A stretch of 64,000 bases of DNA from Mucilaginibacter rubeus. GTDB lineage: Bacteria; Bacteroidota; Bacteroidia; Sphingobacteriales; Sphingobacteriaceae. Position numbers and translations under genes: made by a program. The DNA lies in contig NZ_BMKD01000007.1 of the NCBI RefSeq assembly GCF_014643835.1, positions 1 to 64,000 on the forward strand, read 5' to 3'. The notes under the pieces were generated by a model. That model had not been told where the DNA came from, searched no databases, and worked only from the letters and a program-made list of their open reading frames with translations. Positions 21,683-46,700 of this stretch are shown here, piece by piece (position 1 is the first letter of the stretch; the number at the start of each line of letters is the position of its first letter).

Positions 21683-21816
21683 TCTATACTTACTTGTTGG
21701 GTAGCGCCTAAACGCTTGTTTAATCTAAATCAAATTTAACGCATATTACCATGACTTGGGTCGGCCTTGTGTAAAATGATAATGCTTTTATAATATGGCT
21801 TTTATTAAATATACCG

Positions 21817-23271: not shown

Positions 23272-23378
23272 TAGTGCTATTTGCAATTAACAGGGGCAAA
23301 ACCAGTTAGCCGCACAGTTAAAACCAATTAACGTGCAAAACCAGTTCAGCGTACAAAATTAGCTAAAATAAAGTTTTA

Positions 23379-25804: not shown

Positions 25805-26116
25805 ATGTGATTCATTTTGCGTTAGAATAATAACGTGTAAAAATTCCATAATGATGCAGAACCATCTGTCGCACGATCTTCAGATAGTCATATAGGCAAC
25901 AATCAGCAGAATCTATGGAATAAATAAACACCATTTCCTTTTTCCACCACCCAATAAATACTACCAACCATTAAGAATAACCTAAAATCCAGACTTTCTT
26001 ACTATTTACAAGCATTTCAATCAGTCGATTAAAGTAACTTGCAGGAGTAGGTATCCCTCGAACTTAGCGACTTTATATGTGCACTATTGCCTTTCCTGTA
26101 TTTTGGTTTATTGCTC
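25805..26116. other. AT-rich spacer
   Basis: No gene, tRNA or clear repeat is visible between the recombinase start and the IS element. It probably contains the promoter of the recombinase. Confidence 0.4.
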
Positions 26117-26995
26117 AGAAGCTGTTTAAAAACGGTTCAGCATAATTCTTATGGCTGATAAATGTATTATCGCGACACTCGTGTCGTTAAAGCGTTCATA
26201 ATTTTTAGCTGCCCGTCTATTGGTATCAATCCAGGCAAAGGTTCTTTCTACAATCCAACGTTTGGGTAGTATTTTAAAGCTGTGCGATTCAGTTCTTTTA
26301 ATGACTTCAAAAACTGCTTTGAATTTGACTTACCTTTTCCACCAATGTTCCCCGATAGCCATAATCAGCAAATATTTTAATAACTCTATTCCATGTTTCA
26401 AAGAGTTTATCGATGACATCCATAGCCCCATTTCTGTCTTGAACTGATGCGCCTTGAACAACTACTGCCAGAATCATTCCCAATGTATCAACTATGATAT
26501 GCCGCTTGATCCCTTTTATTCTTTTGCCTGCGTCAAAGCCCTTGCTTTCACTGCTTACAAGAGTGGATTTGACAGATTGTGCATCAATTATTCCAACTGT
26601 GGACTGTGCTGTTTTTCCTTGCTTTAAGCGGGTTGTCTGGACAAGGCTTTCTTGTATCATATTAAAACTTCCTGTTTTTTCCATGTGTTAAAATAATAGT
26701 AAACCAATTGCCAGGGTGCAAAATCTTTTGGTAGCATGCGCCACTGGCAACCAGTTTTTATAACATAAAGAATCCCATTAATGATTTCTCGTAATTCATA
26801 CCGGCGGTTACGTTGGCAATCAAAATATTTTGACATAACTTGCCATTGGCTATCGCTTAAATTGCTCGGATAATTTGTCATGCTAATTGAGTTTGTCGTT
26901 ATTCCCAATTAGTGACTATTCAGCCATTTAGCGATGGCCTTTTTATCCACTTTTTAACACATAATACTTTTTTTACTCGTTTTTAAACAGCTTCT
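26117..26995 (-). mobile_element. IS5-like insertion sequence, 879 bp, defective
   Basis: Perfect 18-bp terminal inverted repeats (AGAAGCTGTTTAAAAACG at 26117-26134 and its complement at 26978-26995) bound a broken two-frame transposase on the minus strand. The sequences just outside, CTC and TAG, do not give a matching target duplication. Size, ends and transposase motifs fit the IS5 family. Confidence 0.85.
26126..26881 (-). pseudogene. Disrupted IS5-family transposase
   Basis: The first frame (26657-26881) encodes the N-terminal helix-turn-helix part with LSDSQWQVMSKYF and GCQWRMLPKDFAPW. The second (26307-26684) carries the DDE core: the first Asp in GIIDAQSVKS and the second in IFADYGYRGT. 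The catalytic Glu motif RWIVERTFAW lies in yet another frame at about 26220-26260, ending at a TAA at 26126 inside the left end. One overlap may be the programmed frameshift of this family, but the later breaks near 26310 (at least two) are not, so the enzyme is probably dead. Confidence 0.8.
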
Positions 26996-27885: not shown

Positions 27886-29913
27886 ATGTCAACAAATGTC
27901 AATATCACATCCGGCGGTATTCGGAAACTTCTCGCAAAATACACAGCTGAACAAGCTGTGGCTGAATATATTTGGAATGGCTTTGATGCTGGTGCAACCA
28001 TTGTTGAACTTAACTTTGAAGGTAGCCAACTCGGTAAACTTGATTTTCTGCAAGTTAAAGATAACGGCTATGGCATTGACTTCAATCAGCTCGAAAAGAA
28101 ATTTTTTCCTTTTTATGAGTCTGAAAAAGCAATAGAAATTTCTGCACCCGTCCACACTTCATTGATGCATGGTAAAAACGGAGTGGGACGTCTGACATTT
28201 TTTACGTTTGCCCACTTGGCTGAATGGGAAACAACATATAAAGGAAGCGGAGGGATGGAGTCGGGCAAGATCTTCATCAACCAGGCCACACTAAAAACTT
28301 ATCAACCAGAAAAATCTGCAAATGCCGTATCTCAAACAACTGGAACTAAGGTAACTTTTAATAATGTCAAGTTGTCTATGACCGATATGGTTGTTAATGT
28401 ATTGCCATTCGTAATGTCGGAGTTTTGTTGGTTCCTGGAATTAAATCGTGCACGAAATTATCAGATACTAATTAATGGCGAACCGTTAAACTACTCCGCT
28501 AATATTACAGACAGGGATGATAACGTCGAAATTCTTTACGAAAAAAATAACACTGTATTTACTGGCAAATTTATTCAATGGAAATATCCCCTGCACAAAG
28601 AACTTTCCAAGTATTATTTCCTGAACAGTAACGGGATTGAAGTATATAAAGACTTCACGACCTTAAATAAAAAAGGAGATGAGTTTTTTCACAGTGTTTA
28701 TATTCAAAGCAACTTTTTCGATAACTTTAATGGAGGAATAGAAGTGCCGAACAATCAATCATTGTTGTTCGGAAAAGCAAAATCATCACCTGAATATAAA
28801 TAACTGATCCGCAAAATCAATGAATATGTTCGTGCGAAACGCAAGCCATATCTGCGCACCTTTGCCGCCAGGATGGTTGAAAAATACGAGCAGGATGGTA
28901 TTTTACCACACTACGCCACTGAATGGGAGGAGAAATTTAGAAAACCACAATTAGAAGAAACCTTGATTGGTTTATATGAGGCACAGCCAAAGTTATTTAC
29001 TAATCTGAACACAGACCAAAAGAAAACATTTGTACGGTTCCTTGACCTGATACTGGATTCTAACGAACGACAAAGCCTTTTTCCTATTCTCGATGAAATA
29101 ATTGAATTGGACCAGGAAGAACGGGAAGACCTGGCTAAACTGTTTCGCACAACTAAACTTAATCGGATAATTGATACCATTAAACTAATTGAAGACCGTT
29201 ATAAAACGTACTATCAACTGCGCGATTTAGTTTTTGAGCCTTCTCTTAAAGCTAATGAAGTAGGTCATTTGCAAAAAGTTATCGAAAGCCATTACTGGTT
29301 TTTCGGTGAACATTATCATTTGGTTACAGCGGCAGAACCTAAATTCGAGGAGGCACTGCGGCGATACAACTACCTCCTTACGGAAAAGGACACCACTACT
29401 GAAATTGAACATCAGCACAAATTAAAGGAAATGGACATTTTTGCTTGCCGACAAAACGTACTTGCTGATCGAATTGAAAATATCGTAGTTGAACTCAAAC
29501 ATCCGGCAGTCGCTCTTGGGAATGAACAATACACGCAAGTCGACCAATACTTACAAGTAATTCTTAAGCAACCAGAATTTAATGCATCCAATATGTATTG
29601 GGAGTTTTATCTTGTTGGTAATAAATTTAATACATCTGGTTTTATCGAGAGGCAGATCTCTACCAATAAAAATCATGGACACGCAGGTCTTGTGCTTTCC
29701 ATAGATGATGGCCGCGTTAAGGTGTTTGTGAAAAAATGGAGTGAGGTGTTTGCTGATTTTGAAATCCGGCACAAACATTTGGATACGAAATTAAAACTGG
29801 AACGGGATTTTTTGGCAAATGAATTACAGACTGCAGCAGAAGTTGTGGTATCCGTACAAGAAAATACAGCGGTGCAACCAGAACAAGTTACCCTACCTAA
29901 ATCAATAAAATAA
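27886..29913 (+). pseudogene. GHKL-type ATPase interrupted by one in-frame TAA
   Basis: Two open stretches (27886-28803 and 28804-29913) share one frame, separated only by TAA at 28801-28803, so the full gene would be 675 codons. The N-terminal half has the Bergerat-fold motifs of GyrB/Hsp90/MORC ATPases: N box EYIWNGFDAGA, G1 DNGYGID and G2 HGKNGVGRLTFF. The C-terminal half is helical and unrecognised, with WEFYLVGNKF near its end. A later ATG at 28873 could restart translation of the second half. It heads an apparent operon with the 84-aa gene (1-base gap), and the helicase and methyltransferase follow. It is either a nonsense mutant, a two-piece protein or a sequencing error. Confidence 0.8.
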
Positions 29914-30596: not shown

Positions 30597-33500
30597 ATGT
30601 CAGCAAAGTTTTTTACAAACCGGGAGGAGAAGAGTTTATTCAGGAAGTTTAAAGGAGCGATTGATCATACGGCCGACATTTATGCATTTCATGCCGTTGT
30701 TGGTTATTTCAGGGCTTCGGGATATTTTCCTATTCGCGAGCATTTGCAAAAAATACCGGAGGTTAAAATATTAGTTGGTATAAATGTAGATCAGATCAGC
30801 GCAGAAGCTAAACGCAGGGGCCTGCTGTTTTTTGGCGACCCGGACCGTACCCGCGAAGAATTCATAAAATTAATGCGACAGGATATTCGCGAAGCCGAAT
30901 ATGTAAAAGAGGTTGAAGATGGCATTTTACAATTTATGGAAGATGTTATCGACAAAAAGATACACATTAAAGTACATAAAACTAAAAAGCTTCATGCCAA
31001 GATCTATATATTCTTGCCAAAAAACTTTAACGAATATAGCGGCGGTGAAGTAATTACCGGTTCATCAAACCTAACCGATGCCGGATTGGGCATAAAAAAC
31101 GAAGGTAACTATGAGTTTAATGTTGCCTTACGGGATTATGAAGAAGTTGCATTTGCCGAAGCCGAATTTCAAAAGCTTTGGGCCGAAGGCGAAGATGTAC
31201 TACCTATAGATATTGCCCGGATAAAAGACGGAAGCCATATTGGCCAGCTATACAAACCCTACGAAATTTACATCAAATTACTAATAGAATATTTCGGAAA
31301 AAATATAGAATATGATCCCGATTCGGTTGGCGATCTGCCTCCTAATTTTAAAAAACTAACCTATCAAATTGATGCTGTTAACCAAGGCTACAGCATGCTG
31401 TTGGAGCATAATGGCTTTATGCTGGCCGATGTTGTTGGTTTAGGTAAAACCATTATTGCAACATTGGTAGCCAAGCGTTTCCTGATAGCAAACGGAACTT
31501 TAAATACCAAAATATTAGTTGTATATCCACCGCATCTTGAAACCAACTGGAAAAACACATTCAGGCAATTTGGGCTTGAAAAACATGTGCGCTTTATTAG
31601 TAATGGGAGTTTACATAAAATTATAGAACATAAAACAGAAGATTATTGGCCGAAGGAAGAATATGATTTGATATTAGTTGATGAAGCACACAAATTCAGG
31701 AATCATAAAGCGCAGATCTTTCAGCAGCTTCAGTTAATATGTAAAACCCCAAGAGCTGTTGAGGGAAATATTTTAGGCTTACGTAAAAAGGTTATACTTA
31801 TTTCGGCAACTCCGCTAAATAACCGCCCAGAAGATTTATATTACCAATTACAGTTATTTACTGATGCCCGTAAATCAACGCTGCCGGTAACTAACTTACA
31901 GGCATTTTTTGCGCCGCTTATCAGAAAATATAAAGACCTGGTAGCTGCATCGAAAGTTAATGGAGTGCCTAACACTGCCGAGCTCAGAAACTTATATGGA
32001 GCCATTCGCGAAAAGGTATTGCAGCCCATTACGATCAGGCGAACCCGGAGAGATGTAGAATCTTACGAGGACTACAAAAAAGATTTGGCCGATCAGGGAA
32101 TTAAGTTTCCGATAGTCGACCCGCCATTGGCTATAAAATACGAATTAGGGAACGATATGGGCAGCTTGTTCCAGGAAACGATTGCTTTTTTGGTTGAGCG
32201 CATTACCTATCATAGGTACAGGGCCATTGAGTATTTACTGCCTGAAATTCAGGCTAAATACTATACCCAGGCAGAGTCGGCATCCAAATCATTGGCATCA
32301 ATCATGATGACACAATTGGTGAAACGATTGGAGAGCTCTTTTTATGCCTTTAAAATTTCACTAAACCGTTTCCGGGAATCAACGGAGCGTATGATTGACT
32401 TATATGAACAGGAAAATGGAAAGGTTTATGTAGCACCCGACGCCCAAATAAATGAGTTGTTTGATAAAGGATGGGATGAAGAACGCATTGATCAATACAT
32501 CCTTGACCTTTCGATAGATAATCCTAAAAATCAAATTTTTTCACCATCAGATTTCAGAGAAGACTTTATTACCTCACTGAAGGCCGACCTGGAGCAGATC
32601 GAATTGATCTGCAAGCGATGGAAAGATGTTTTCGCTGATCCTAAACTTGATGCTTTCGAAAAACTTTTTCAACAGGAGCTTTTAAGAAAAGATCGCAACC
32701 CATCTGGCAAGCTGGTAATTTTTACCGAATCGAAAGATACAGCCAGGTACCTTTTTGAAAAATTTGACAAATGGGGGCATAAGGAGGATACCTTGATGGT
32801 TTCGGCAGATAACCGCAAAGCCATGCACAGTAGGGTGTTGGCTAATTTTGATGCGAACCTACCGGGTAAGCAACAAAATGATATCAAGTTTTTGATTACT
32901 ACCGAAGTATTGGCCGAAGGGATAAACTTACACCGTGCAAATATTTTAATAAATTATGATACCCCATGGAATGCCACGCGCCTGATGCAGCGCATAGGCA
33001 GGGTTAACCGTATAGGTAGCACGGCCGATACCATTTATAACTACTCTTTTTATCCAAGTAAAGAGGGAGATGCCATTATCAGTTTATATAATAACGCTTA
33101 TATAAAGCTACAGGGTTTTCATACCGCCTACGGCGAAGATGTGCAGGTGTACACACTCGAGGAGGTGTTGGAGCAGGTTACGCTGCATATAAAAGGTTTA
33201 CCCGAAGAAGAAGACAAGCGTTTAAAATACCTGGAAATTATCCGCGATTTCAGGCGGAAAAACGAAAAAGAATTTAAACGCATCGCACGGCTACCTTTGC
33301 GCGCCCGAACTTCACGAGATACGCAACAAGCCGGCAAAAAAAAAATGAAGGGACAAACCCTGGTGTTTTTGAAGTCGGATTATAAAATGGACTTTTTCAA
33401 GGTGGCCGATAAAAAAATTGAACCGTTGAGTTTTGTAGAAGCCGCCGAAATATTTGAAGCCAAAGCCAGCGAACTTGCGGCTGGCCAGCTGCCATCCTAC

Positions 33501-33908
33501 CATCATACACAGGTACAAATGGCCGTAAGTAAATTTGAGGAAGATTTGCTCAGCCAATCGTCTGATGCCATTTCAGGGCCGCAGGCTGATGCAAAAACAA
33601 ATCAAGCCAAAAAGTTTATAAGGGAAGAAAAAGCGTCCAGTACCGACGAGAAATTTAGAAAAGCCTGCGAGTTGTTGTACGCCCTTCTCGAAACAGGCAC
33701 CTATACCAACCTGGCTGCCGAAATAAATCAGGTGCGTTTAAAATGTGATAAAAATCAGTTACCAGTAGCCAAGGCACATAACTTATTGTTAACTTACGCA
33801 GTAAAATACGGGCATCAGAGTAATAATGACGACGATGAGCAGCCCGAATTACCTTTAACCATTACTGATAAACCGGCAATTATAATTTCTGAAACCTTTA
33901 CTTTATAA
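30597..33908 (+). CDS. PLD-domain SNF2-type helicase
   Basis: An 1103-aa protein fusing an N-terminal phospholipase D-like domain (about residues 1-215, with KLHAKIYIF and GSSNLTDAGL of the HxK...N signature) to a superfamily 2 SNF2-like helicase. The helicase has Walker A in DVVGLGKTII (about 277), DEAH in LILVDEAHKFRN (about 360), motif III SATPLNNRPEDL, motif V VLAEGINLHRA and motif VI QRIGRVNRIG (about 800). A helical region follows. The PLD part could be a nuclease. Its stop is 6 bases before the methyltransferase gene, so the two form one unit, as in defence systems that pair a translocase with a modification enzyme. Confidence 0.9.
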   Translation: MSAKFFTNREEKSLFRKFKGAIDHTADIYAFHAVVGYFRASGYFPIREHLQKIPEVKILVGINVDQISAEAKRRGLLFFGDPDRTREEFIKLMRQDIREAEYVKEVEDGILQFMEDVIDKKIHIKVHKTKKLHAKIYIFLPKNFNEYSGGEVITGSSNLTDAGLGIKNEGNYEFNVALRDYEEVAFAEAEFQKLWAEGEDVLPIDIARIKDGSHIGQLYKPYEIYIKLLIEYFGKNIEYDPDSVGDLPPNFKKLTYQIDAVNQGYSMLLEHNGFMLADVVGLGKTIIATLVAKRFLIANGTLNTKILVVYPPHLETNWKNTFRQFGLEKHVRFISNGSLHKIIEHKTEDYWPKEEYDLILVDEAHKFRNHKAQIFQQLQLICKTPRAVEGNILGLRKKVILISATPLNNRPEDLYYQLQLFTDARKSTLPVTNLQAFFAPLIRKYKDLVAASKVNGVPNTAELRNLYGAIREKVLQPITIRRTRRDVESYEDYKKDLADQGIKFPIVDPPLAIKYELGNDMGSLFQETIAFLVERITYHRYRAIEYLLPEIQAKYYTQAESASKSLASIMMTQLVKRLESSFYAFKISLNRFRESTERMIDLYEQENGKVYVAPDAQINELFDKGWDEERIDQYILDLSIDNPKNQIFSPSDFREDFITSLKADLEQIELICKRWKDVFADPKLDAFEKLFQQELLRKDRNPSGKLVIFTESKDTARYLFEKFDKWGHKEDTLMVSADNRKAMHSRVLANFDANLPGKQQNDIKFLITTEVLAEGINLHRANILINYDTPWNATRLMQRIGRVNRIGSTADTIYNYSFYPSKEGDAIISLYNNAYIKLQGFHTAYGEDVQVYTLEEVLEQVTLHIKGLPEEEDKRLKYLEIIRDFRRKNEKEFKRIARLPLRARTSRDTQQAGKKKMKGQTLVFLKSDYKMDFFKVADKKIEPLSFVEAAEIFEAKASELAAGQLPSYHHTQVQMAVSKFEEDLLSQSSDAISGPQADAKTNQAKKFIREEKASSTDEKFRKACELLYALLETGTYTNLAAEINQVRLKCDKNQLPVAKAHNLLLTYAVKYGHQSNNDDDEQPELPLTITDKPAIIISETFTL

Positions 33909-33914
33909 TCACAG

Positions 33915-36900
33915 ATGTTAAACGCGCAAGAACTTCGAAAAATACTGGAGAATAAATATAACCGTAACGATTGGTATAAAATTTTACGGCAAAATTTTAA
34001 CGTTAGTGTATTACGAGATAACCCTCCGCCTATTATTGCTGTAAAAGGGAACAAATTAGGAGCTACTGCTTATGAGCTTGGCGAATTTGACACTTCTAAC
34101 GATTTTAAGGTAGGTATTTACGAAGTTGATGTTCCGGGGGTTAAACAGATCCATCGCAATAAAGTTGAACTACGAAATTTATTGCAAAACGTGTACACTA
34201 CATCTGTTGATGCAGCGCTGATAGTATTTACCCAGGGCGATAAATGGCGTTTTAGTTATGTAAGTGAGGTAACAACGCGTAACCCGGAAACCGGCGAACG
34301 TGAAAAAATCAAAACCGATTCAAAAAGGTATACTTATCTTTTTGGTAATGGCGAAAAAGCCAAAACAGCGGCAGATCGTTTTGCCGGTATCCAGCAGGCA
34401 GATACTGCAACCGGTGAAGGCACAACATTAAAAGCATTGCAGGACGCTTTCAGTGTGGAGGAAATGTCGAAAGACTTTTTTAAGAAATATCGCCATCATT
34501 ACGGTGCGTTCTTAACTTTCCTCATTGGCGAAAATGAAGACGGTAAATCCATCGGTACAGCATCCGGACAGTTCAAAACCATTTTTAATGCCGATCATAA
34601 AAAAGCCCGGGATTTTGTAAAAAAGATGCTGGGCCGCATCGTTTTTCTTTATTTTTTAGAAAAGAAAGGCTGGATGGGCGTCCCTGAACATAAAACCTGG
34701 GGCGATGGGGATCCCGACTTTTTGAGAAACCTTTTTAACGATAGTAATAACCAGGACGCTTTTTACTCGTTGGTATTGGAACCCTTGTTTCATAACACAT
34801 TGAACCAGGTGCGTGATGGCGATTTTTTTGATATTGACGATTCATTATTTAAACAGTCAGGATATAGCAAACTTAAAATTCCATTTTTAAATGGTGGCCT
34901 GTTTGAAGCGGAGGCCTACAAAACTGATTTTCTTACCTTCCCCGCCAACTTGTTTAAAAGCCTGTTTGATTTTTTTGATCAATACAATTTCACCGTACAT
35001 GAAGACAGCCCGCAGGAGCATACCGTAGCCGTAGATCCGGAAATGTTGGGCCACATTTTCGAAAACCTGCTGGAGGATAATAAAGACAAAGGCGCCTTTT
35101 ACACCCCTAAAGAAATTGTGCACTACATGTGCCAGGAAAGCCTTATTGAATATTTATATACCCAATGTAAGGTCGAAGATAATGAGCAACTGCGTGATGC
35201 GCTTGAACGGTTTATTAAAAACCAGGAGCTGGGCGATATCGCAGAATATGAAGAGGCAATACTCAAAGCATTACGCGATGTAAAGATCTGCGATCCAGCC
35301 ATAGGTTCGGGTGCTTTCCCGATGGGGATCTTATTAGAAATTTTTCACGCTGTTGAAACATTGAATTTTGCTGTCGACGGTATAATAGAAAAAGTCTGGG
35401 ATTTAAAAGAATGGAACCCTGCCAAAATCAAGCTAAGTATTATTGAAAACAGCATTTACGGTGTAGACATTGAACCTGGCGCAGTTGATATAGCACGATT
35501 AAGGTTTTGGTTAAGTTTAGTTGTAGATGAGGTTGAACCACAGCCGTTACCCAATCTTGATTACAAGATTGTTGTCGGAAATAGTTTAATAAGCAAATTT
35601 GAAGGAGAGGTTGTCCAAATAGATTGGGAAGTTACAGCCGGTACCGAGGCTACAAAAAATCGACAACATCAAATACAAGAGAACCTAAAAAAGTTGTTAA
35701 GTAAGCAGAGACAGTTTTTTAGTTACAAAGGCGATAAAAAAAAGTTACAATCAGAAATACGAAGCTTAAAAATAGATGTTCTAATTAGTCAGCTTGAATT
35801 AGATAAGTATAAGTACGCTAACACAGCAGCTACCACAGGCAATTTATTCGAAGAAACAAAAAAGGAAAAGCAAAAATCTGCCGAAATAGCGATACAAATA
35901 TCGGGATATGATAAGGCTATTAAAAAGTTAGAAAGTCTAAAGAAAGTGCCAGATAGGCCCTTAAATTTCTTTGATTGGAAACTTGATTTCCCCGAAGTAT
36001 TAAATTCGGCGTTAAAACCAAACGGTGATTTAATTTCAACAACGGGCTTTGATATTGTTATCGGAAATCCGCCTTATTTGGACAATCGCGCAATTGATAG
36101 TGATATAAAATTAAATGCGGGATTTAAACAGGTCAATAAGAAATCATTTCGTCCAAATTTATACTTGTTCTTTATCGAACAGGCACTTAGGATATTAAAA
36201 AACAACCAAGTGCTTATTTTCATAAATCCAAATCAATTTCTTTCAACCGAAATGGGATTCGGAATTAGGAGTTATATTTTAGATGAGTTTAGTATAATCA
36301 GAATTGATGATGTTTCTTATTTGAAGGTTTTTAAGGAAGCTTCTACTTATACCAGCATATTTATTATTAAAAAGGCATTTAAGGATGGTCAGCGGATTAT
36401 TATAAATAGATGTTCAACTTTGGGTGATCTTGGTAAGATAAGTTTCTCTTTAAATAATAGAAATATTATTGCAACCCCCTCAAAACTAATCTCCTTAAAT
36501 ATTAATAATGAATTGGTAACTAAAATAGAGGCAAAACATAAGCAATTTGAACATTTTGGAAAATTCCTTTGGGGAACTTCTCAAAGTGGATATGGTGCGC
36601 TTAAAATTAGCCAACAAGAATATAATGATTTGCCTAACGGAAAAAGGAAATTATACGAACCTATAATTCAAACAGCAGATATCAAGAAATTTCATATTAA
36701 TTGGAAAGGTGAATACATACCTGTTGAAATATTCTCAGATTCAGTTAAGGCAAATTTTAATAAACCAAAATTAGTTATTGCCAGGTTAACCAAGACTCTA
36801 CAATGTAGTATAGATTTCAATAAATTCTACGTTGGAAAGTCGACAGTTATTACAGATATAGCTATTGATCTTGATTATTTATTAGGGTTGTTAAACTCCA

Positions 36901-37199
36901 AAGTGATCGACTTTTGGTACTATGCAAAATTTGAAACCACGCATATGCAAGGAGGTTATATTAGGTACGATCTCCCTTACCTAAAGCAAATTCCTATCCC
37001 AATTCCAGATAAAGAAACTATGAATTCAATAGCAGAAATTGCCATTAATCTTCGTAAGAATATAGATTTTATAGAAAATCTACACAATCTAAATTTGAAA
37101 ATTTTTAAACTTTATAATCTTGACTACAATTCGGCTTTTTCTATTGATCCCGAAATAAAGATGAGTGAAATAGAATATAATAATTTCTTGTTAAACTAA
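33915..37199 (+). CDS. Eco57I-type DNA adenine methyltransferase (expressed form)
   Basis: A 1094-aa protein. The N-terminal part (about 1-160, with ATAYELGEFDTSNDFKVGIYE) resembles the nuclease-like head of type IIG/Eco57I enzymes. Then come motif X HIFENLLEDNKDKGAFYTPKEI, the SAM motif I DPAIGSGAFP (about 460) and the catalytic NPPY (718-721), which mark an N6-adenine methyltransferase. Everything after NPPY is the target-recognition half; it is markedly more AT-rich than the first 650 residues. Codons at 36019-36079 form one arm of an inverted repeat whose partner begins the inverted cassette at 38680-38740. A swap of this half is therefore possible. The start overlaps nothing; it is 6 bases after the helicase. 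Confidence 0.9.
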   Translation: MLNAQELRKILENKYNRNDWYKILRQNFNVSVLRDNPPPIIAVKGNKLGATAYELGEFDTSNDFKVGIYEVDVPGVKQIHRNKVELRNLLQNVYTTSVDAALIVFTQGDKWRFSYVSEVTTRNPETGEREKIKTDSKRYTYLFGNGEKAKTAADRFAGIQQADTATGEGTTLKALQDAFSVEEMSKDFFKKYRHHYGAFLTFLIGENEDGKSIGTASGQFKTIFNADHKKARDFVKKMLGRIVFLYFLEKKGWMGVPEHKTWGDGDPDFLRNLFNDSNNQDAFYSLVLEPLFHNTLNQVRDGDFFDIDDSLFKQSGYSKLKIPFLNGGLFEAEAYKTDFLTFPANLFKSLFDFFDQYNFTVHEDSPQEHTVAVDPEMLGHIFENLLEDNKDKGAFYTPKEIVHYMCQESLIEYLYTQCKVEDNEQLRDALERFIKNQELGDIAEYEEAILKALRDVKICDPAIGSGAFPMGILLEIFHAVETLNFAVDGIIEKVWDLKEWNPAKIKLSIIENSIYGVDIEPGAVDIARLRFWLSLVVDEVEPQPLPNLDYKIVVGNSLISKFEGEVVQIDWEVTAGTEATKNRQHQIQENLKKLLSKQRQFFSYKGDKKKLQSEIRSLKIDVLISQLELDKYKYANTAATTGNLFEETKKEKQKSAEIAIQISGYDKAIKKLESLKKVPDRPLNFFDWKLDFPEVLNSALKPNGDLISTTGFDIVIGNPPYLDNRAIDSDIKLNAGFKQVNKKSFRPNLYLFFIEQALRILKNNQVLIFINPNQFLSTEMGFGIRSYILDEFSIIRIDDVSYLKVFKEASTYTSIFIIKKAFKDGQRIIINRCSTLGDLGKISFSLNNRNIIATPSKLISLNINNELVTKIEAKHKQFEHFGKFLWGTSQSGYGALKISQQEYNDLPNGKRKLYEPIIQTADIKKFHINWKGEYIPVEIFSDSVKANFNKPKLVIARLTKTLQCSIDFNKFYVGKSTVITDIAIDLDYLLGLLNSKVIDFWYYAKFETTHMQGGYIRYDLPYLKQIPIPIPDKETMNSIAEIAINLRKNIDFIENLHNLNLKIFKLYNLDYNSAFSIDPEIKMSEIEYNNFLLN
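36019..36079 (+). repeat. Inverted repeat arm A inside the methyltransferase gene
   Basis: These 61 bases cover codons for NGDLISTTGFDIVIGNPPY. The first 34 bases (36019-36052) are identical to the reverse complement of 38707-38740, and over 61 bases there are only three mismatches (36053, 36062, 36065). It is the likely crossover site of the invertible segment. Confidence 0.85.
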
Positions 37200-37223
37200 G
37201 CTATTACTATTAAAAAATCCAGA

Positions 37224-38740
37224 CTATTTCTCAATATATAGATATTCCGAGTCAACGACCCGAGTTTCTTCAAGTGTTAAATTGTAAATTTTATAGACAA
37301 TTGAATTAATTTTCTTTTCTATATTTTTTATGCTTGACGTCTCGTTTGATGATTTTAGTGTTAATACTTTATCTACCAGGTCTTCAAGTTCTTTCTTATA
37401 TGTTTCATCTGTTATTATTGGGAAAAGCTTTCCATCATTAATTTGCAATGTATGTGTAGTAGTTATGAAGTTTTTAATATAATATGTTCCAAATTTTGAA
37501 TTAAGAAGAGCCAATATATATTTATCCGATATTCGTGAAACTGAATGCATCTTGACAACATTTTTTGAATATGGACAAGGTTCAATGAAAAAGCCCTTTA
37601 AATCATTAGTGAAATAATCGACCCATCCAAATCCCGAAGTATTGTAGTAATTTGCTCCCTGCCATCTTGAGTTGGTTACGGTAGCTTCACGAAGCTCTTT
37701 GACAGTAGCCTTATGCCATTTTATGCACTCTACATGGGGGACATACCATTTGTAACCATTTTCATTCCCTCGATTATAATTGACCCAAACTTCTCTTTCA
37801 CAACCATTAAGCTGCTCTTCTAAGGAAAGACTTTCAAAATCAATAACATCTGTATATCTGACGGTTTTGTACAAAAAGAACTTTCCGAATAGAGATGGCT
37901 TTCCAGTATCTTTTTTTAGTTTCTCGGCTAATTCATAAAATATATTCTTATTCCTTAAATTAACGTCGTGTTCTATTAATACTCCCTCTATCAGGAGTTT
38001 ATTTACCAGCAATCTAAGTATCTTAAGTTCTTCTTCTTCAGAATTACATATTATAGCTAAATATTTACTGTTATTGCCAGTAACTAAGCCTTGTGCGCCT
38101 TCTGTAATTAATCCTAAAAAGGTCAGATCAGTTTCATTTAAATTATCACAGTAATTATTTAGCACAGAAATATTTTTTTGTCGGCTTTTAGTATCTTCTA
38201 TTAGCTCCCAATATGTTTTGTACAATTTATTTAGATGCGGATTAAGCCTGTGATATATACTTAAATTTGTGCTATTGGGAGTAAAGAAAATATTATTTAA
38301 TGAAGCTCTATACAACTCAATTTTCGCCGAGTAAGTCTCGGGTTTTTTAAAAGAATTTATAGCATTTTTATATTTAAAAGAATAATTCAGATTTCCCAAA
38401 GGCTCCTTATTCATTACTACAATAGTTGTATCAACGAACGCCGAATCGAAAACGTAGCCTACATTTACTATCTCGATCAACCGATTACCCTGTAGACGTT
38501 TTCTAAGCACTAATTTTGACCCTAAGGTTAAAAATGTATTCGGCGTTATATAAGCAATAGTTCCTTTAATTTTAGCTTTATCAATTGCCTCTATATAGAA
38601 ATAATGGTACATATCATCCGAAAAGCCATATTTATTTTTATATTGTTGTTGGTTGAGTGTACCAATTTCTTTATTACCTAAATAAGGCGGATTCCCTATA
38701 ACAATGTCAAAGCCCGTTGTTGAAATTAAATCACCGTTTG
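37224..38740 (-). pseudogene. Silent inverted specificity cassette for the methyltransferase
   Basis: Read on the minus strand this encodes a second C-terminal half of an Eco57I-type methyltransferase with its own NPPY motif (from 38693), then MYHYFYIEAIDKAKIKGTIAY, PNTFLTLGSKLVLRKRL and a target-recognition domain ending SEYLYIEK (489 aa from the Asn of NPPY). No SAM-binding half, start codon or promoter precedes it: the frame is closed by TAA about 25 bases before the repeat. The stop is 24 bases from the convergent stop of the active gene. Inversion between the repeats would join it in frame to residues 1-717 of the active gene, giving 1206 aa. Confidence 0.85.
38680..38740 (-). repeat. 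Inverted repeat arm B at the silent cassette
   Basis: The reverse complement of this segment matches 36019-36079 with three mismatches in 61 bases and 34 consecutive identical bases (38707-38740). It faces the arm in the active gene across about 2.6 kb, the geometry needed for inversion rather than deletion. Confidence 0.85.
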
Positions 38741-38850
38741 ATGATTGCCTGAATAGACATTAGTAAATTGAGATATTCTTTAAACAGAAGCTGTCTGTAT
38801 AAACAAATCATAGTATTTAAATTAAACCAATTTAATTAACCAACAAACTT

Positions 38851-39444
38851 ATGATTTACGGCTACATCCGCGTCAGCACAGACAAGCAAACAGTAGAAAA
38901 CCAACGATATGAACTAAATCAATTCTGCGGGAAAAACATTTTGGTCATTGACAAATGGATCGAAGAGACTATATCAGGATCAAAAAATGTACAAGACAGA
39001 AAATTAGGAGCCTTACTCAAAAGAATGAAAAAAGGCGATATCCTCATTTGTTCAGAGCTATCAAGATTGGGCCGCAACCTGCTCATGATCATGGGAGTAT
39101 TAAACGAATGCATGAACCGCGATATCCAGGTTTGGACCATAAAAGACAATTACCGCTTAGGTAGCGATATTAATTCAAAAGTATTGGCCTTTGCCTTCGG
39201 TCTCTCTGCAGAAATTGAACGAAACCTCATCTCCCAACGCACCAAAGAAGCTCTGGCCCGCAAAAAAGCCGAAGGCGTAATTTTAGGCCGCCCCATAGGC
39301 AGCAAATCAGCAACAACCAAGCTAACCGGTCAGGAGAAGAAAATTAAAGAACTGTTAGATAAGAAAGTATCTTACAGCGCCATCGGCCGTATTTTGGGGG
39401 TTCACAGAATAACTGTATCTTCATTTGTTAAAGAATTAAAATAA
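38851..39444 (+). CDS. Mpi-type serine DNA invertase
   Basis: A 197-aa serine recombinase of the small invertase/resolvase class. The catalytic Ser is in GYIRVSTDKQ (residue 9), the arginine block in ELSRLGRNLLMIMGVL, the helix-E segment in GLSAEIERNLISQRTKEALARKKAEG, and a helix-turn-helix ends the protein (YSAIGRILGVHRITVSSFVKE). From memory it is very like the master invertase Mpi of Bacteroides fragilis, which flips many promoter segments. It starts 110 bases beyond inverted repeat arm B, so it is the obvious candidate to flip the methyltransferase cassette. All catalytic residues are present. Confidence 0.9.
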   Translation: MIYGYIRVSTDKQTVENQRYELNQFCGKNILVIDKWIEETISGSKNVQDRKLGALLKRMKKGDILICSELSRLGRNLLMIMGVLNECMNRDIQVWTIKDNYRLGSDINSKVLAFAFGLSAEIERNLISQRTKEALARKKAEGVILGRPIGSKSATTKLTGQEKKIKELLDKKVSYSAIGRILGVHRITVSSFVKELK

Positions 39445-39456
39445 ACCTAAACATCA

Positions 39457-42183
39457 ATGCCCAACATCTTACACGAGCGTGTTTTACAATTTTTACTCAA
39501 ATACAGGGAATCAAATCCACAATTTAAATTTTGGCTTCGCCAACGCGACAGAGGCAACAGATTAGCCGATGGTCTATGGTTCCAGGGAACCGAGGGCTAC
39601 ACCTTTGTAGGCTTATACAACCGCGGTGGCGGCACTAACATGACCAGGAGCTTCGGCATAAGTTTTTGGGTGCACGAAAATGGCAACCTGGACGGCAATA
39701 TTGAAATTGTTTGGAACGAGGAAAAAGATGCCGGTATCATTAGTTTCTACCAGCAGGCAATGGAATTACTGGGCGGTTTTGTACAGAAAACGGCAACCAA
39801 ATACATTAAATACCTGGGATCAGACAACTTTGAAAACAAGGTAATAGATTTTTTAGATCATGACAAGCCTCAAATAGATCAGCTGATTGAAAATTTAGGC
39901 TTATCCGATACCATGTTTCTGAGCGATGCTAAATTTAACGAGCAGCTTAACCGGATCCGAAGTAAAAAAGAAAATAACAAGCCCCAGGATTCCGAGAACG
40001 AAAAAATTAGCCGGCTCAAAAAACTTTTTAACGATTTCAAAACAACCGGACAGTATCAATACAGGGAACTCCAGGCTCAATTTATTCCTTTCGGTAAAGA
40101 GCTGATAGAAGCGTTGTTAACAAAGCCTCAAATTACCAATGTCGACCTTACCGGCCTGATTCAGATATTAAAAGCAGGTTCGGGCTACCACATAGCCGAG
40201 CGATACCTGCCGCTTATGATTGATGACACAGCTGCGCACCAGGGCCTGCTCACTAAATTTGAAAACCTGGCTTATAAGGGCTATACAGGTGCAGGTAAAA
40301 ACGGCATCACTAAACCCAACAACATACAGTTGGCCAATATCCACGCGTTTTTAAAGGATGCATTTACCATTAATACTATCGAAGATGCCATCGAATTTTG
40401 CGATACCTATGATAACCTGAACATCCCCGAGGTCAAAAAAGGTGTTTATTCTCCGTGGCTATTTTACATTAATCCCTCGTTATTCCCGATAATTAATAAC
40501 AAGCACCTTCAGTTTTTAGATTGGATGGGCGTATCCCACCAATATAGCTACGCTATCGAATTGTTTAATGAAGTAAAAGATCTTTTAAATACCGATCTCG
40601 GCCTTTTAGATGCCTTTGTATACTTTACTGATTTTGAAGATCTGATTAAAAAAGAAACACCAACAACCATGCCGCTCAATACCATTCTTTACGGGCCTCC
40701 GGGCACGGGCAAAACTTTTAATACCATTAGCAGGGCTATCGCCATTGCCAACCCCGAATATGATTTGACCAATAAGCCACGTAAGGATGTAAAAGAAGAG
40801 TATCAACGCTTGTGTGCCGAAAAGCAGATTGAGTTTGTTACGTTTCATCAAAGCATGGGATATGAAGATTTTATAGAGGGCATTAAGCCGTTAAAACCTA
40901 ACGCCGATGATACCTTTGTGAAATACGATATTGAGGATGGAATTTTTAAATTGATCTGCAAAAACGCCAGCTACAAGCCCGATGTTCAAACCAATCGTTT
41001 TCATATAACTCAGGATCAATTTGACAAAGCTTCATTTTTCAAAATATCGCTCGGTAACACGCTAAACCCCGAAGATGGCGAGATTTACGATTATTGCATA
41101 AAAAACAATTGCATTGCAATGGGCTGGGGCGGCAATGTTGATTACAGCAATTTAAACGAGGCCCAAACCAAGGCGCAGGCTATTGAAAACGGCGAATCGC
41201 AGTTTGCCATAACTGCCCTTAATTACTTTATCCACTATCTAAAAAAAGAGAATTATGTACTGGTATCAAACGGCAATTACAGTTGCCGGGCTATTGCCAA
41301 AGTAACCGGCGATTATTTTTATAATGAAACAGATGAGATAGATTACTGGCAATTCAGACCTGTGGAGTGGGTGGTAAAAGATGTAAATATTCCCGTTTCG
41401 GAAATCTATAACAGGATTTTTTCGCAGGCCAGTATTTATAAACTGGATAAGCAAAGTATTAAAGTTGATTTTTTTGTAAAAGATGCCGCTGAAATAGCTA
41501 AGGACGACACAAGTAAGCCTAAAAACTATGTGCTCATCATCGACGAGATAAACCGGGGCAATGTATCGCAAATTTTTGGCGAACTGATCACTTTGATTGA
41601 AGATGATAAGCGCCAGGGCATGCCCGAAGAGCTAAGCGTTAAGTTGCCCTACAGCAAACAGCCTTTTTCGGTACCACCTAACCTGCATATCATCGGCACC
41701 ATGAATACGGCCGATAGAAGCGTTGAAGCCTTGGATACCGCGCTGCGCAGACGTTTCAGTTTTATTGAAATGTTGCCCCAGGAAGATCACGAAGGTATTG
41801 GCTATTTACAAGAGATCGATTTAAAGCTGATATTAAAAAGCATCAATATCCGCTTAGAAAAACTACTATCGCGCGATCACATGATGGGCCATTCTTTTTT
41901 CCTGAATATCAGCAAGGTAACCGAGCTTTACAACGCCTTTTATAATAAAATCATCCCGCAACTACAGGAATACTTTTTTGGCGATTATGGCAAAATAGGC
42001 TTGATTTTGGGCAAAGGCTTTATTACCGAAATTGCCGATAAAATTCAATTTGCAGATTTTGAGTATGAGGATAAAGACCTGCTATTAGAAAAAAGAGTTT
42101 ACCGCATCAACAACTTTAAAACAGATGAAAATGAACTAAACGAAGATGAATTTTTAACCGCTGTTAAAGCAATTGTTAATTAA
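39457..42183 (+). CDS. mcrB: McrB-type AAA+ restriction subunit with inserted PUA/EVE-like domain
   Basis: A 908-aa motor of a modification-dependent restriction system. The N-terminal 400 residues are a probable DNA-recognition region without a recognised name. The AAA+ domain has Walker A GPPGTGKT (413-420), Walker B LIIDEINRGN (about 691), the McrB sensor MNTADRSVEALD (about 748) and ALRRRF. Between Walker A and B lies an insert (about 525-672: FFKISLGN..., NCIAMGWGG, YFIHYLKKENYVLV) that resembles EVE/PUA-like modified-base readers. It starts 12 bases after the invertase stop and is followed 3 bases later by mcrC. It probably detects modified cytosine or other DNA marks, or phage DNA. Confidence 0.88.
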   Translation: MPNILHERVLQFLLKYRESNPQFKFWLRQRDRGNRLADGLWFQGTEGYTFVGLYNRGGGTNMTRSFGISFWVHENGNLDGNIEIVWNEEKDAGIISFYQQAMELLGGFVQKTATKYIKYLGSDNFENKVIDFLDHDKPQIDQLIENLGLSDTMFLSDAKFNEQLNRIRSKKENNKPQDSENEKISRLKKLFNDFKTTGQYQYRELQAQFIPFGKELIEALLTKPQITNVDLTGLIQILKAGSGYHIAERYLPLMIDDTAAHQGLLTKFENLAYKGYTGAGKNGITKPNNIQLANIHAFLKDAFTINTIEDAIEFCDTYDNLNIPEVKKGVYSPWLFYINPSLFPIINNKHLQFLDWMGVSHQYSYAIELFNEVKDLLNTDLGLLDAFVYFTDFEDLIKKETPTTMPLNTILYGPPGTGKTFNTISRAIAIANPEYDLTNKPRKDVKEEYQRLCAEKQIEFVTFHQSMGYEDFIEGIKPLKPNADDTFVKYDIEDGIFKLICKNASYKPDVQTNRFHITQDQFDKASFFKISLGNTLNPEDGEIYDYCIKNNCIAMGWGGNVDYSNLNEAQTKAQAIENGESQFAITALNYFIHYLKKENYVLVSNGNYSCRAIAKVTGDYFYNETDEIDYWQFRPVEWVVKDVNIPVSEIYNRIFSQASIYKLDKQSIKVDFFVKDAAEIAKDDTSKPKNYVLIIDEINRGNVSQIFGELITLIEDDKRQGMPEELSVKLPYSKQPFSVPPNLHIIGTMNTADRSVEALDTALRRRFSFIEMLPQEDHEGIGYLQEIDLKLILKSINIRLEKLLSRDHMMGHSFFLNISKVTELYNAFYNKIIPQLQEYFFGDYGKIGLILGKGFITEIADKIQFADFEYEDKDLLLEKRVYRINNFKTDENELNEDEFLTAVKAIVN

Positions 42184-42186
42184 CGG

Positions 42187-43542
42187 ATGAAAACGCTCAA
42201 GGTTTTTGAACATCAAACAATAACTGTTGGTCAGTCGTTAATTTTTTATAGCGGAAGGGAATTAAAAAGAGAACCGCTTAAAAAAGAATATATCGATGCG
42301 TTATGGAAACTGTACGATGTAAAAAAGCGACCCTTTTTTAAGCCCACCCGCAATGGGGTTTGCTTTAACGCTTACGTTGGCGTTGTAAAGGTATTAAACC
42401 TCACCATCGAAATTTTGCCCAAGGCGGATAATCGCCGTATAAACTTTGATGACCTTAAAGGGCTTAAGGCTGATGAAAATAAATGGCAAAGCATCTTGCT
42501 TGATATGTTGCGGGTGTGTAGTTTGATCAACACCCCATCGGTATCGGATGCTCATCTAAAAACACGAAACAATAGCATACTGGATCTTTATATAGAGCGC
42601 TTCATTACCGAGGTAAATACTTTGATGAGGCAGGGCTTGATTAAAAAATACCGTAAAATTGAAAACAGCAGCACTGCATTAAAAGGAAAACTACTCATCG
42701 GGAAGCATATCCAAAAAAACATTGTGCACCAGGAGCGGTTTTTCATTGCGCAAACACAATATGATAAAAACCATTTATTGCATCAAATTCTGGCAAAAGC
42801 TATCGCCATATTGCCCAATATCTGCAGCAACAAATTCTTACTCTCTGAATGCCATAGCTTAAAATTAAACTTCCCCGAAGTTGATGATATCAAAATAAGC
42901 GAAAGCTTGTTTGATAAGCTTAATTTTGATCGTAAATCAAGCGCCTATCAAATTGCAATTCAAATAGCCAAAATGTTATTGCTTAATTATCGACCTGATC
43001 TAAGTACCGGCAGCAACCATTCAATAGCGATACTTTTTAATATGAATCAGCTATGGGAGGAATATGTTTACAGGATCTTGCAAAAAAGTAAGCCCCAAAG
43101 CGTAAAAATGATCTACAATCAAAAGGCTACGCGCTTTTGGGAAACCGATGGATCCAGGCGATATTTAAAACCGGATATTATAATTGAGTCGGCAACATCC
43201 GAAAAGATAGTGATAGATACCAAATGGAAAAATATCAATAACGACCCATCAAAAATTGGCATAGACGATTTGAGACAGATGTACGCCTATCATCATTTTT
43301 TTGAAGCGAAACAATGCTTTTTGCTTTATCCAGGCAGTGCCATGCCTGTTAAAAATGGCGCTTTTTACAACAAATACTTCTTTGGAACAGAAGAACCGGC
43401 GTCTAAACATTGTGGTTTGATTATTTCCAAAGCCTGGAATGAGAGCTCAGTGAATGGCAAAACATTTTTAAATACTTTATTAGGTAAGGAAATATATGAA
43501 TCCCTTGGATTAATAAGCATCCAAAAATCTGATGAAACATAA
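42187..43542 (+). CDS. mcrC: McrC-type nuclease subunit
   Basis: A 451-aa partner of McrB. The N-terminal half contains the McrC-specific stretch NAYVGVVKVLNLTIEILPKADN and LLDMLRVCSL. The C-terminal PD-(D/E)xK nuclease core is visible as YLKPDIIIESATSEKIVIDTKWKN (catalytic Asp and the DTK motif), preceded by the helix MNQLWEEYVYRIL with the usual glutamate. The gene begins 3 bases after mcrB. The pair cleaves DNA when McrB translocation is activated by a recognised site. Confidence 0.9.
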   Translation: MKTLKVFEHQTITVGQSLIFYSGRELKREPLKKEYIDALWKLYDVKKRPFFKPTRNGVCFNAYVGVVKVLNLTIEILPKADNRRINFDDLKGLKADENKWQSILLDMLRVCSLINTPSVSDAHLKTRNNSILDLYIERFITEVNTLMRQGLIKKYRKIENSSTALKGKLLIGKHIQKNIVHQERFFIAQTQYDKNHLLHQILAKAIAILPNICSNKFLLSECHSLKLNFPEVDDIKISESLFDKLNFDRKSSAYQIAIQIAKMLLLNYRPDLSTGSNHSIAILFNMNQLWEEYVYRILQKSKPQSVKMIYNQKATRFWETDGSRRYLKPDIIIESATSEKIVIDTKWKNINNDPSKIGIDDLRQMYAYHHFFEAKQCFLLYPGSAMPVKNGAFYNKYFFGTEEPASKHCGLIISKAWNESSVNGKTFLNTLLGKEIYESLGLISIQKSDET

Positions 43543-43792: not shown

Positions 43793-46700
43793 TTGTATAA
43801 ATTGAGTACACAAAAAGATATACTTTCGTTTTGGAAAGACATTGAAGTATTTTCACTGCCTGACTTGCCTTCTAATGCTAAAGAATTAGATCTGAACAAG
43901 CCATTACCATGGCAGTTGCCGTTTACACCACAAGCAAATAGCACATGGCGCCACATCGTATTTTTGGGAAAACATGGTAAGAGTAAAATAATCGACGTAA
44001 TAGATAATGCTTTAGGCGATACATCAGAAAAGCCAGACTGGTTAGAGAAGCCAACTGGCAATACCTGCATGGCGGTATTAATCCTCAATGAAGCTGGGCG
44101 ATTGTCTGGAGATAATCCATATTTACAAGCATCATATTTATATGGCATTAAATGCCTTCAGGATAGTAGAAAGATATCTGAAGTTATCAGATATTTAAAT
44201 GAAGTTCAAGAGAAATTTAGGGAACGACATCCTTATCAGGAAACAGATACGCTCGAAAACTTATCAACGCCTTTAATTACGGCAGCTCATTTAAAAAAAG
44301 AGATAGCTGTATTGAATGATTTGAATATTAAAGAAATATCTTGTGGCCATCAGGTTTATGTACAGTCCATTCAAGTTTCCAAACAATCCAAAGCCGATAC
44401 AGGATTTCTAAATAGCTTTTACCTGGACGATCTCAATCGCTTAAGCGATAATTCAACTAAGTTTGGGGAGGGGTTAAGTAATTATTTACGTGCGGAGATA
44501 AATCAGAAAATGCGTGTTGATTTTCTAAAGGATGCCGATGCGTTTTTTGAAGTTTTAGATCCCTTAAAGTTACCTGCCGGAAGATGGCCATCAAATCCCA
44601 CCTACGGCCTTTATTCGGCGCAGGTTGGTGCTGTTAACTCCAGCTTGCTGCTACTTAAAGACAATGGTATTATTGGGATTAACGGTCCTCCTGGTACAGG
44701 GAAAACAACTCTTCTTTCAGATATAATAGCAGAAGTAGTGGTACTGCGTGCAAAAAAGTTGATGCAGGAAAATGTCTCTGCATTATTTTCAAAAGGTAAT
44801 AGGATAGAAAAAGAAAACAGATCTGCATATCACTTCCCTGTTAATAGTAATGTATTTGATGATGCAGGAATTGTTGTAGCCAGCAATAATAATGCTGCTG
44901 TAGAAAATATATCTAAAGAGTTGCCGGATGAACGAAAAATAGATAGAGATACATTTCCTGACGCCGGATATTTCGATGATTACGCACAAAGTTTAATTGA
45001 AGGTAAAAGTTGGGGATTGTTAGCTGCAGCCTTGGGAAATTCTGAAAACAGGACCATATTTAAAAATAATTTCTGGTATAAAAATGGCGATAATCCAGGC
45101 TTTGCGGCTTTTTTGCAATCATTATATAATAACCCTGAAAATGAAGATCGGACGCCCAATTATTTGGACGGGTACCGGAAGACAAAAACTGAACTTGAAA
45201 CACTATTAAAAGAATTTGAGGGATTTAAAAAAGCCGCAAGTGATTTTCATCAATTGCTGCCAGGTTTCCTAAATGATCAGAAAAATAAAATAGGCATTGA
45301 AAATCATATTAATCAACTCCTCAATCTTATTAAATCGCTTAATAACCATAAACAACCGTTAATAGCTCAATTGACAGGGCTTGAAACACAGATTTCTGAA
45401 ATTCAATATAGTATTCAATTACATCAATCGGTAAAACCAGGCTTTTTCTTTTTTCATAAGCTATTTAATACTACTGTATTTAAAAAATGGAACGAGCCAT
45501 ACCATCTTTTTGTAACTAAACATAATGACCTCGCCAGGAAACGAATAGAAGTTCAGAAGGAGGCAGAAAATTTTAATATTGAGATTACCGTTAAAGAAAA
45601 AGAAAGAACACAGTCGCAGGATCAGCTAAACAAAATTAATCAGCGAATAAACATTTATAATAAAGAGAGAGAGAACCTTCATGATAAATATGGAATAGCC
45701 TATAGAAACATTCCTGATGAAAATCTATTAATATCCTTCCAGCATGACAAAGATGTTTTCCATAAAAGTAATCCGTGGTCATCTGTAAGTATTAATAAAC
45801 TGCGGAGCGAAATCTTCATTAAGAGCCTTCAACTTCACGAATATGCGATTTTGAGAAATGCTAAACAGTTTAAAAATAATATAGGCTTACTGATGGAAGT
45901 AATGGACGGTAAAGTTGATGTTGCCCAAGACATCGCATTAAGCTTATGGCAATCATTTTTCTTTTGCATTCCGGTTGTTTCAACTTCACTAGCTTCTGTT
46001 AGCCGCTTATTTGGTAGCTTGGGAAAGGAAAATATTGGATGGTTACTACTCGACGAAGCAGGACAAGCAACTCCGCAATCCGCTGCAGGGATCATCTACA
46101 GGTCAAAAAGAAGTATTATTATCGGTGATCCCCTACAAATTGAACCGGTAGTTACTGCACCGGCTAAATTAATAAATGTATTGAATGGACAATACAGAAC
46201 CGATTCAATATGGTCACCATTAAGAAGTTCTGCACAAATTTTGGCCGACAGAATAACCGCAAGCGGGACATGGATGAAACAAACTGATAATGACGAAAAT
46301 ATATGGACGGGGTTTCCTTTACGTACGCACAGACGCTGTAATAATCCGATGTTTGACATATCCAATGAGATTGCCTACAATTTTCAAATGGTAAAAGCTA
46401 TGAATGATATTCCATTTGACTGCGCTCTTGGGTCCTCTGTCTGGTTTGATGTCAATGGATCTAATATTCAGAACAAACAAGTAGTTGAAGAAGAACTCAG
46501 TTTATTAAAAGAGAAAATACAATTGCTGGGAAAAACACCGCGAAAAGTATTTGTTATATCTCCCTTTAAATCAGTTGCTGATCGGTGTAAGCAAGACCTG
46601 TATGTCGTTAATTCAAAAATACAGTGTGGTACAATCCACACCTTTCAGGGTAAGGAAGCAGATATCGTTTTTCTGGTTCTCGGCAGTGACCCTAATAAGC

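Follow-up and report, generated by a model that had tools for sequence, protein, structure and literature searches.

A putative specificity-switching inverton at a single-chain defence methyltransferase locus of Mucilaginibacter rubeus

This report concerns a methyltransferase locus within a 64,000-nucleotide stretch of the Mucilaginibacter rubeus genome (contig NZ_BMKD01000007.1, positions 1 to 64,000; hereafter the window). The locus codes for an Eco57I-type N6-adenine methyltransferase (MTase), followed by a second, silent C-terminal MTase half on the opposite strand and by a serine invertase of the Mpi family. An earlier note on this DNA proposed that inversion between two repeats exchanges the C-terminal half of the enzyme and thereby its target recognition domain (TRD). 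The elements concerned are the following:

33915..37199, + strand: Eco57I-type N6-adenine MTase in its present reading, 1094 aa (Pfam Eco57I and TaqI_C above cut-off)
33915..36065, + strand: constant half of the MTase, N-terminal domain and S-adenosylmethionine (SAM)-binding part, predicted to be unmoved by inversion (identity profile)
36066..37199, + strand: active cassette, NPPY motif with the predicted remaining catalytic domain and TRD (Pfam, in-silico inversion, identity profile)
36019..36079, + strand: left inverted-repeat arm, within the coding region
36023..36042, + strand: putative recombination site, left, CGGTGATTTAATTTCAACAA (weak motif match)
37224..38735, - strand: silent cassette, NPPY-to-stop half of 503 codons that does not begin with a start codon (Pfam Eco57I passes its cut-off, TaqI_C does not)
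38680..38740, - strand: right inverted-repeat arm, 5' end of the silent cassette
38717..38736, - strand: putative recombination site, right (weak motif match)
38851..39444, + strand: Mpi-family serine invertase, 197 aa (NF009949, Pfam Resolvase)

The core of the inverted repeat (36019-36079 and 38680-38740) is identical at 58 of 61 positions, the first 34 of them consecutive. Counted as wider arms (36019-36099 and 38660-38740), the repeat extends over 81 nt with 86% identity. Sequences outside the arms show no evident similarity, and those inward of the 61-bp core resemble each other weakly and over a short distance only. Exact inverted matches in 33915-39444 reach 34 nt, compared with a maximum of 22 and a mean of 14.2 in 200 dinucleotide shuffles, which rules out a chance repeat. 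The repeat described in the earlier note (61-bp inverted segments, 34 consecutive identical bases, three mismatches) is thus real, and its coordinates, together with the two reading frames, confirm that it brackets the active C-terminal half and a silent half on the opposite strand. The repeats had further been placed exactly at the NPPY codons. The arms do span these codons (36066-36077), but they fall in the part of the repeat that carries the three mismatches, with the perfect 34 bp immediately 5' of them; NPPY would therefore probably move together with the cassette on inversion. When the segment is inverted in silico about the repeat, the 1094-aa protein becomes one of 1206 aa with its frame kept and residues 1-722 unchanged, the first altered residue being 723, directly after NPPYL. 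This reproduces the clean exchange that had been predicted, and the window has the defining arrangement of an invertible cassette, inverted repeats around alternative in-frame coding halves.

The silent frame, read from 38735 to 37224, contains no stop in 503 codons, while 500 shuffles gave a mean of 41 stops and a minimum of 26. Its earliest ATG is codon 42, and it lacks the SAM-binding half. The description of the silent cassette as open from its own NPPY to its stop, with neither a start codon nor a SAM-binding half, is therefore accurate. Past their first ~100 residues, the active and silent halves of the window share no significant similarity.

With the constant half as query, 79 related loci were found (designated L001 and so on), 63 of which have a usable full open reading frame; 45 relatives from these were aligned with the window MTase. 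Mean pairwise identity among the 46 sequences is 0.48 for residues 1-722 and 0.24 for residues 723-1094. At the transition itself it drops from 0.62 (681-722) to 0.25 (723-800), and the first half contains two poorer stretches, 0.32 at residues 1-100 and 0.28 at 601-680. Because identity falls after residue 722, the repeat lies at the border of a constant and a hypervariable half. The structure model of the active form (pLDDT 79) finds CamA, BseCI, BrxX, MmeI and TaqI as Foldseek matches; together with the identity profile, this suggests that the exchanged part comprises motif IV (NPPY), the remaining catalytic domain and the TRD. The best PADLOC model for the MTase is REase_MTase_IIG (282.7 bits), and a loose PD-ExK pattern search of its residues 1-400 returned scattered D/ExK matches only.

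The adjoining invertase is indeed of the Mpi type, as had been claimed: it passes the NCBIfam Mpi-family model NF009949 with 342 bits against a cut-off of 272, and its PDB relatives are 4m6f and 3uj3 (DNA-invertase) as well as gamma-delta resolvase. Among the 79 MTase loci, an invertase gene (71-91% identity) lies downstream of the MTase in six, and an opposite-strand C-terminal spare half was found in the same six and in none of the other 73. Queries for spare halves comprised the C-termini that had been collected, together with those six silent halves; seven loci (including L074) yielded no NPPY query of their own. In 62 of the 73 loci without invertase the MTase frame stops within the locus, and 51 of the 62 have a further 1.5 kb of DNA or more; the remaining loci are weaker negatives, since only these 51 have both. 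Five of the six genomes with the invertase have a single intact gene for it, one of them with an additional broken fragment; the sixth carries two, the second of which (65% identity) also adjoins a spare half.

The same association was seen from the side of the invertase. The family to which G001 belongs (G001 being the genome of L001, a Mucilaginibacter metagenome-assembled genome) was represented by 399 genomes, and 34 of them gave 35 matches at E<=1e-70. Identity is at least 68% in 33 of them; with two left out for scant upstream DNA (L111, L138), 29 of the 31 assessable matches adjoin a fragment resembling an MTase C-terminus, several of these cut by a contig end. A sample of 395 genomes from the phylum gave six matches, four of them new, and all four new ones are accompanied by an MTase fragment, in L149 with mirrored layout. 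Of the 35 family matches, 9 have a contig end less than 700 bp upstream of the gene and none has one on the downstream side, a circumstantial observation that fits assemblies split by mixed or repeated cassettes. Fifteen matches come from plasmid records; six of these were inspected by annotation and sequence, and three carry spare halves (two Lactococcus plasmids and one of Prevotella nigrescens). The Prevotella plasmid (L157, 6638-12582) codes for the invertase and two spare MTase halves with three motif-IV site copies, possibly a three-way switch. L122 has a close invertase homolog (89% identical), and no MTase half was found nearby; at L130 the MTase frame ends close before the invertase and no spare half was found, owing to a deletion or an assembly artefact.

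Several related loci carry their cassettes in opposite orientations. Between L118 and L125, 1447 bp are inverted at 83.8% identity, flanked by a collinear MTase N-half (69.9%) and a collinear invertase region (74.7%). The silent protein half of L118 is 77.9% identical to the active half of L125, and the silent half of L125 87.9% to the active half of L118, whereas the active and silent halves within L118 and within L125 share only 43% and 34%. L001 and L053 are likewise inverted relative to each other, in two blocks at 75.9% and 73.9%. The Lactococcus plasmids pJM1F (of Lactococcus cremoris JM1) and pUCCL629A, whose invertases have an identical protein accession, show two inverted blocks, one of 496 bp at 99.2% and one of 535 bp at 85.2%. 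In the 245 nt that follow the site, the active half of pJM1F matches the silent half of pUCCL629A at 98.8% and the active one at 72.2%, and its own silent half matches the active half of pUCCL629A at 86.5% and the silent one at 71.8%; ahead of the site, the flanks agree at 98.7%. This change of partners maps to a 22-bp repeat, GAGCGATTATGTACGACAAAAT, similar to the motif that precedes other invertase genes (see below). Of 32 silent halves, 13 have their nearest relative in an active half from a different locus and 18 in a silent half, so the two states are not strictly interchangeable in this sample. L062 contains a 105-nt inverted repeat inside its cassette (10866-10970 and 11632-11736), at which its active and silent halves appear to switch between L001-like and L053-like alleles; these mosaics suggest a four-state system, in which more than two combinations may arise.

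L110 (genome G360) is a sister locus of the window, with identities of 85% for the neighbouring helicase, 72% for the MTase N-half, 90% for the invertase and 82% for McrC. Judged by its sister loci, the window would belong to the Sphingobacteriaceae, probably close to Mucilaginibacter. In the DNA alignment, the last block before the cassettes covers 35958-36077, the stretch 35598-35957 is unaligned, and similarity resumes at 38830; the cassette halves of the two loci share about 23-37% identity, in pieces. L110 has a 64-bp repeat of its own at the same NPPY codons (62 identical), and its silent half matches the active half of L075 at 60.5% of 433 positions. Over 48 anchored nucleotides, the two arms agree at 45 and 47 positions within each locus, and at 33 and 30 positions between the window and L110. 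Agreement within loci above that between loci, that is concerted evolution, is as recombination between the arms predicts.

A motif sampler run on 34 regions upstream of invertase genes yielded a common 20-nt motif with the consensus CGAGCGTTTTTATTAGACAG. When left out in turn, 26 of the 34 regions score at least 10, but the motif partly reflects the protein because many loci share homologous coding sequence there. At L067, L127, L126, L074 and L118 none of 500 shuffles scored as well as the locus itself; shuffles as good numbered 43 at L110, 112 at L001 and 175 at L062. Two classes of junction can be recognized. In the window, L110, Capnocytophaga sputigena (L143, with a 49-bp perfect repeat) and P. 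nigrescens (L157, with site copies at 6681, 9290 and 12015) the junction is at motif IV, and in others, for example L074, L078 and L118, it lies further into the TRD, with 23-25 bp perfect repeats. When the 79 loci were searched for repeats scoring at least 20 less than 600 nt from the NPPY codons, only L074 and L078 were found besides the window, 355 nt further downstream.

We propose that the window contains a two-state specificity-switching inverton of a single-chain defence MTase, a reading that we hold to be very probably correct. The earlier note had likewise seen in it a phase-variable defence enzyme, and this is the best reading of the invertase score, the nearly complete association with spare halves and the inverted relatives. 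The Mpi-family invertase encoded at the locus would recombine the two inverted repeats and flip about 2.7 kb, fusing the constant SAM-binding half alternately to the present or to the stored NPPY-plus-TRD half. Either state would yield a full-length enzyme (1094 or 1206 aa), and thus the methylated and restricted motif would change while defence would not be toggled on and off. The upstream helicase with a PLD-type nuclease domain would be the likely restriction partner. Anatomy, both reading frames, co-occurrence of invertase and spare half, and inverted relatives are direct observations; from these we infer that flipping occurs in this strain and by this invertase, that both TRDs are functional and differ in their motif, and that the helicase restricts and the system protects against phage.

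Several observations weigh against this proposal. The arm in the window fits the motif of its relatives weakly, ranking 6-7 of 9834 positions and being equalled by 34 of 500 shuffles. No spare half was found beside the close invertase matches L122 and L130, at the ~64% family matches L141 and L142, at the degenerate fragments L144 and L145, or in three of the six inspected plasmids (Desulforapulum, Pedobacter, Treponema). The opposite orientations come from related loci and none was seen for the window itself: the search of relatives that the earlier note had recommended did reveal inverted counterparts (L118/L125, L001/L053, the Lactococcus pair), but neither TRD of the window has a relative at E<=1e-20 in the 399 family genomes. 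The Lactococcus halves align in inverted orientation over the first ~500 bp only, and therefore more than one simple inversion separates this pair. The structure model of the silent half is poor (pLDDT 54) and was not used, and the argument for a role in defence comes entirely from homology.

Three other explanations of the locus were weighed. The second half could be a dead remnant, a duplicated or truncated MTase copy in inverted position whose repeats merely encode the conserved FDIVIGNPPY. Its missing start codon and SAM-binding half would suit such an origin, as would the invariance of NPPY in all 46 aligned sequences. A remnant would hardly retain 503 stop-free codons, however, and the perfect 34 bp extend upstream of GFDIVIGNPPY into non-conserved residues with synonymous sites identical; moreover, the arms evolve in concert, and the same layout accompanies the invertase in dozens of loci and has inverted counterparts among relatives. 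On the open frame, the concerted arms and the recurrence, this explanation was rejected as highly improbable. It is also conceivable that the locus diversifies slowly by RecA-dependent homologous recombination or gene conversion while the invertase acts elsewhere, for example on promoters. The arms may be long enough for homologous exchange, the L062 mosaics appear to change allele at an inverted repeat of 105 nt, inversion covers only part of the Lactococcus halves, and the cassettes of L110 are wholly different; in addition, a single global invertase of Bacteroides fragilis flips many promoters (PMC12632263). We nevertheless regard this as unlikely, although the least so of the three, since the intact invertase gene is single in five of six genomes and its second copy in the sixth also stands beside a spare half, invertase and adjoining spare half co-occur in six of six loci, and the Lactococcus halves change partners at a 22-bp repeat resembling the invertase-upstream motif.

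The third explanation accepts the inversion and differs in its outcome: the present form alone would be active, and inversion would act as an on/off switch by producing an inactive enzyme. The dissimilarity of the two halves past their first ~100 residues makes it possible that the 1206-aa form fails with this N-half. On the other side, the fusion preserves frame and full length, active and silent alleles swap places between related loci, and spare halves resemble halves that are active elsewhere, as in the pair of L110 silent and L075 active, or in the silent half of the window, whose closest relative among the collected active C-termini (L061) is 31.7% identical over 515 aligned positions. 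We consider a mere on/off switch improbable, and the specificity-switching inverton remains the preferred reading.

The genes that flank the MTase and the invertase are codirectional with them:

30597..33908, + strand: PLD(HKD)-type nuclease domain and SNF2 helicase, predicted restriction partner, 1103 aa (Pfam PLDc_2 at 112-195, SNF2-rel_dom and Helicase_C above cut-off)
39457..42183, + strand: McrB-like AAA+ protein, starting 12 nt past the invertase gene (Pfam AAA_5; NCBIfam McrB below cut-off)
42187..43542, + strand: McrC-like protein (Pfam McrBC, 219 bits)

A homolog of the PLD-SNF2 helicase is present in 74 of the 79 related MTase loci. Its best PADLOC model is C3a139 'HKD+Snf2', and a pattern search found no strict HxKxxxxD spacing in it. 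The G+C content of the active cassette is 0.29 and that of the constant MTase half 0.39; both cassettes range from 0.29 to 0.31, compared with 0.39-0.41 in the constant half and the helicase, invertase and McrB genes.

Inverting hsdS loci of type I restriction-modification (R-M) systems, such as SpnIII of Streptococcus pneumoniae and the shufflon of B. fragilis, are well described; there too, inversion between repeats exchanges TRDs and a recombinase is encoded in the locus (PMC7394358, PMC3090145). Their TRDs reside on a separate HsdS subunit, whereas that of the window lies within the MTase chain with the junction at motif IV, and the B. fragilis shufflons employ tyrosine integrases (PMC3090145) instead of a serine invertase. 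Nine window proteins were scanned for comparisons of gene content with known systems. A type I R-M system was rejected, as the TaqI_C specificity domain is in the MTase chain and no S subunit is listed among the nine. Phase variation of BREX pglX was reportedly described by Goldfarb in 2015. The type 1 BREX locus of Lactobacillus rhamnosus has an integrase flanked by a full-length and a partial PglX, and thus resembles the window in combining a full and a partial single-chain MTase with a site-specific recombinase (PMC7513527). It differs in that the helicase of the window is of the PLD-SNF2 type and its recombinase of the Mpi family, while that of L. rhamnosus is termed an integrase (PMC7513527). 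BREX was rejected for the window: PglX scores 71.5 against 500 bits, and none of the nine proteins is listed with a PglZ or BrxC model.

Modules of an HKD-SNF2 helicase and an N6-methyltransferase are treated in a 2026 survey of BREX-related systems, in whose main text a term search gave no occurrence of phase variation, inversion, recombinase or invertase (PMC12839542). The fusion of HKD nuclease and SNF2 helicase together with an N6-methyltransferase is what the window shares with BREX-related type 2, DISARM and ARMADA systems. As to the features given there for BREX-related type 2, the HKD domain is present beside the N6-MTase (PLDc_2 above cut-off), and neither the DUF499 ATPase nor DUF3780 is among the nine proteins (PMC12839542). 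The window helicase resembles DrmD of DISARM below cut-off; with 158.5 against 610 bits for DrmD and no other DISARM model listed for the nine proteins, DISARM class 1 was rejected. Mpi is the master invertase of Bacteroides capsule promoters and acts on many of them; the global promoter invertase of B. fragilis goes by this name. By the curated model, the window invertase belongs to the same family. Unlike the single global invertase of B. fragilis (PMC12632263), the window gene is local and its target would be a coding junction. A type IIG enzyme of Campylobacter jejuni reportedly undergoes phase variation through a repeat-tract mechanism. The phase-variable type IIG enzyme of C. jejuni is likewise a single-chain R-M protein and differs in that, as described, expression is switched and not the TRD inverted (PMC4889913).

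According to the earlier note, specificity inversion is known for type I hsdS and had not been described for the present family. The hsdS part is correct, and our literature search, which included few subscription papers and did not cover lactococcal plasmids, found no description of TRD inversion in a single-chain MTase by an Mpi-type invertase; in print, however, an arrangement of this type is not confined to hsdS, as the pglX locus of BREX shows (PMC7513527). Switching on this principle is established for type I hsdS and, in broad outline, for BREX pglX; new are the enzyme class, the Mpi-type invertase and the junction at motif IV. With somewhat less confidence than for the window itself, we think it probable that a clade of local Mpi-family invertases forms a portable specificity-switching module of several single-chain MTase defence systems, found at least in Bacteroidota and Bacillota (Lactococcus plasmids) and cutting at motif IV or further into the TRD. 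In the motif-IV class, as part of the same proposal, the swap would replace the TRD together with the catalytic loop and the remaining catalytic domain. If this is true, programmed specificity switching extends past HsdS and PglX to other single-chain defence MTases, with one invertase family as its tool. Close invertase homologs were found in 34 of the 399 genomes from one family; these bacteria, along with some lactococcal plasmids, would then be expected to harbour mixed populations differing in methylome and phage sensitivity. The natural domain-swap pairs would reveal at which points these enzymes accept a different recognition half, motif IV within the catalytic domain among them.

The McrB-like proteins of the window (39457-42183) and of L110 align over residues 400-908 only (71%). 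No match at E<=1e-4 was obtained for the first ~400 residues, and exchange may thus affect the recognition end of McrB as well. To the left of the defence genes lie fragments of a large serine recombinase (25097-25849, 24759-25172) and of a DDE transposase (26307-26684), and further left (20477-23286) ribBA-like and LptF/G-like genes. Further possible defence genes are located around the operon at 27886-29913 and 43793-46843; they code for a GHKL ATPase with weak likeness to BbrUII/HgiDII enzymes, for an HsdR_N-like protein that stays below cut-off, and for an SF1 helicase resembling MkoC.

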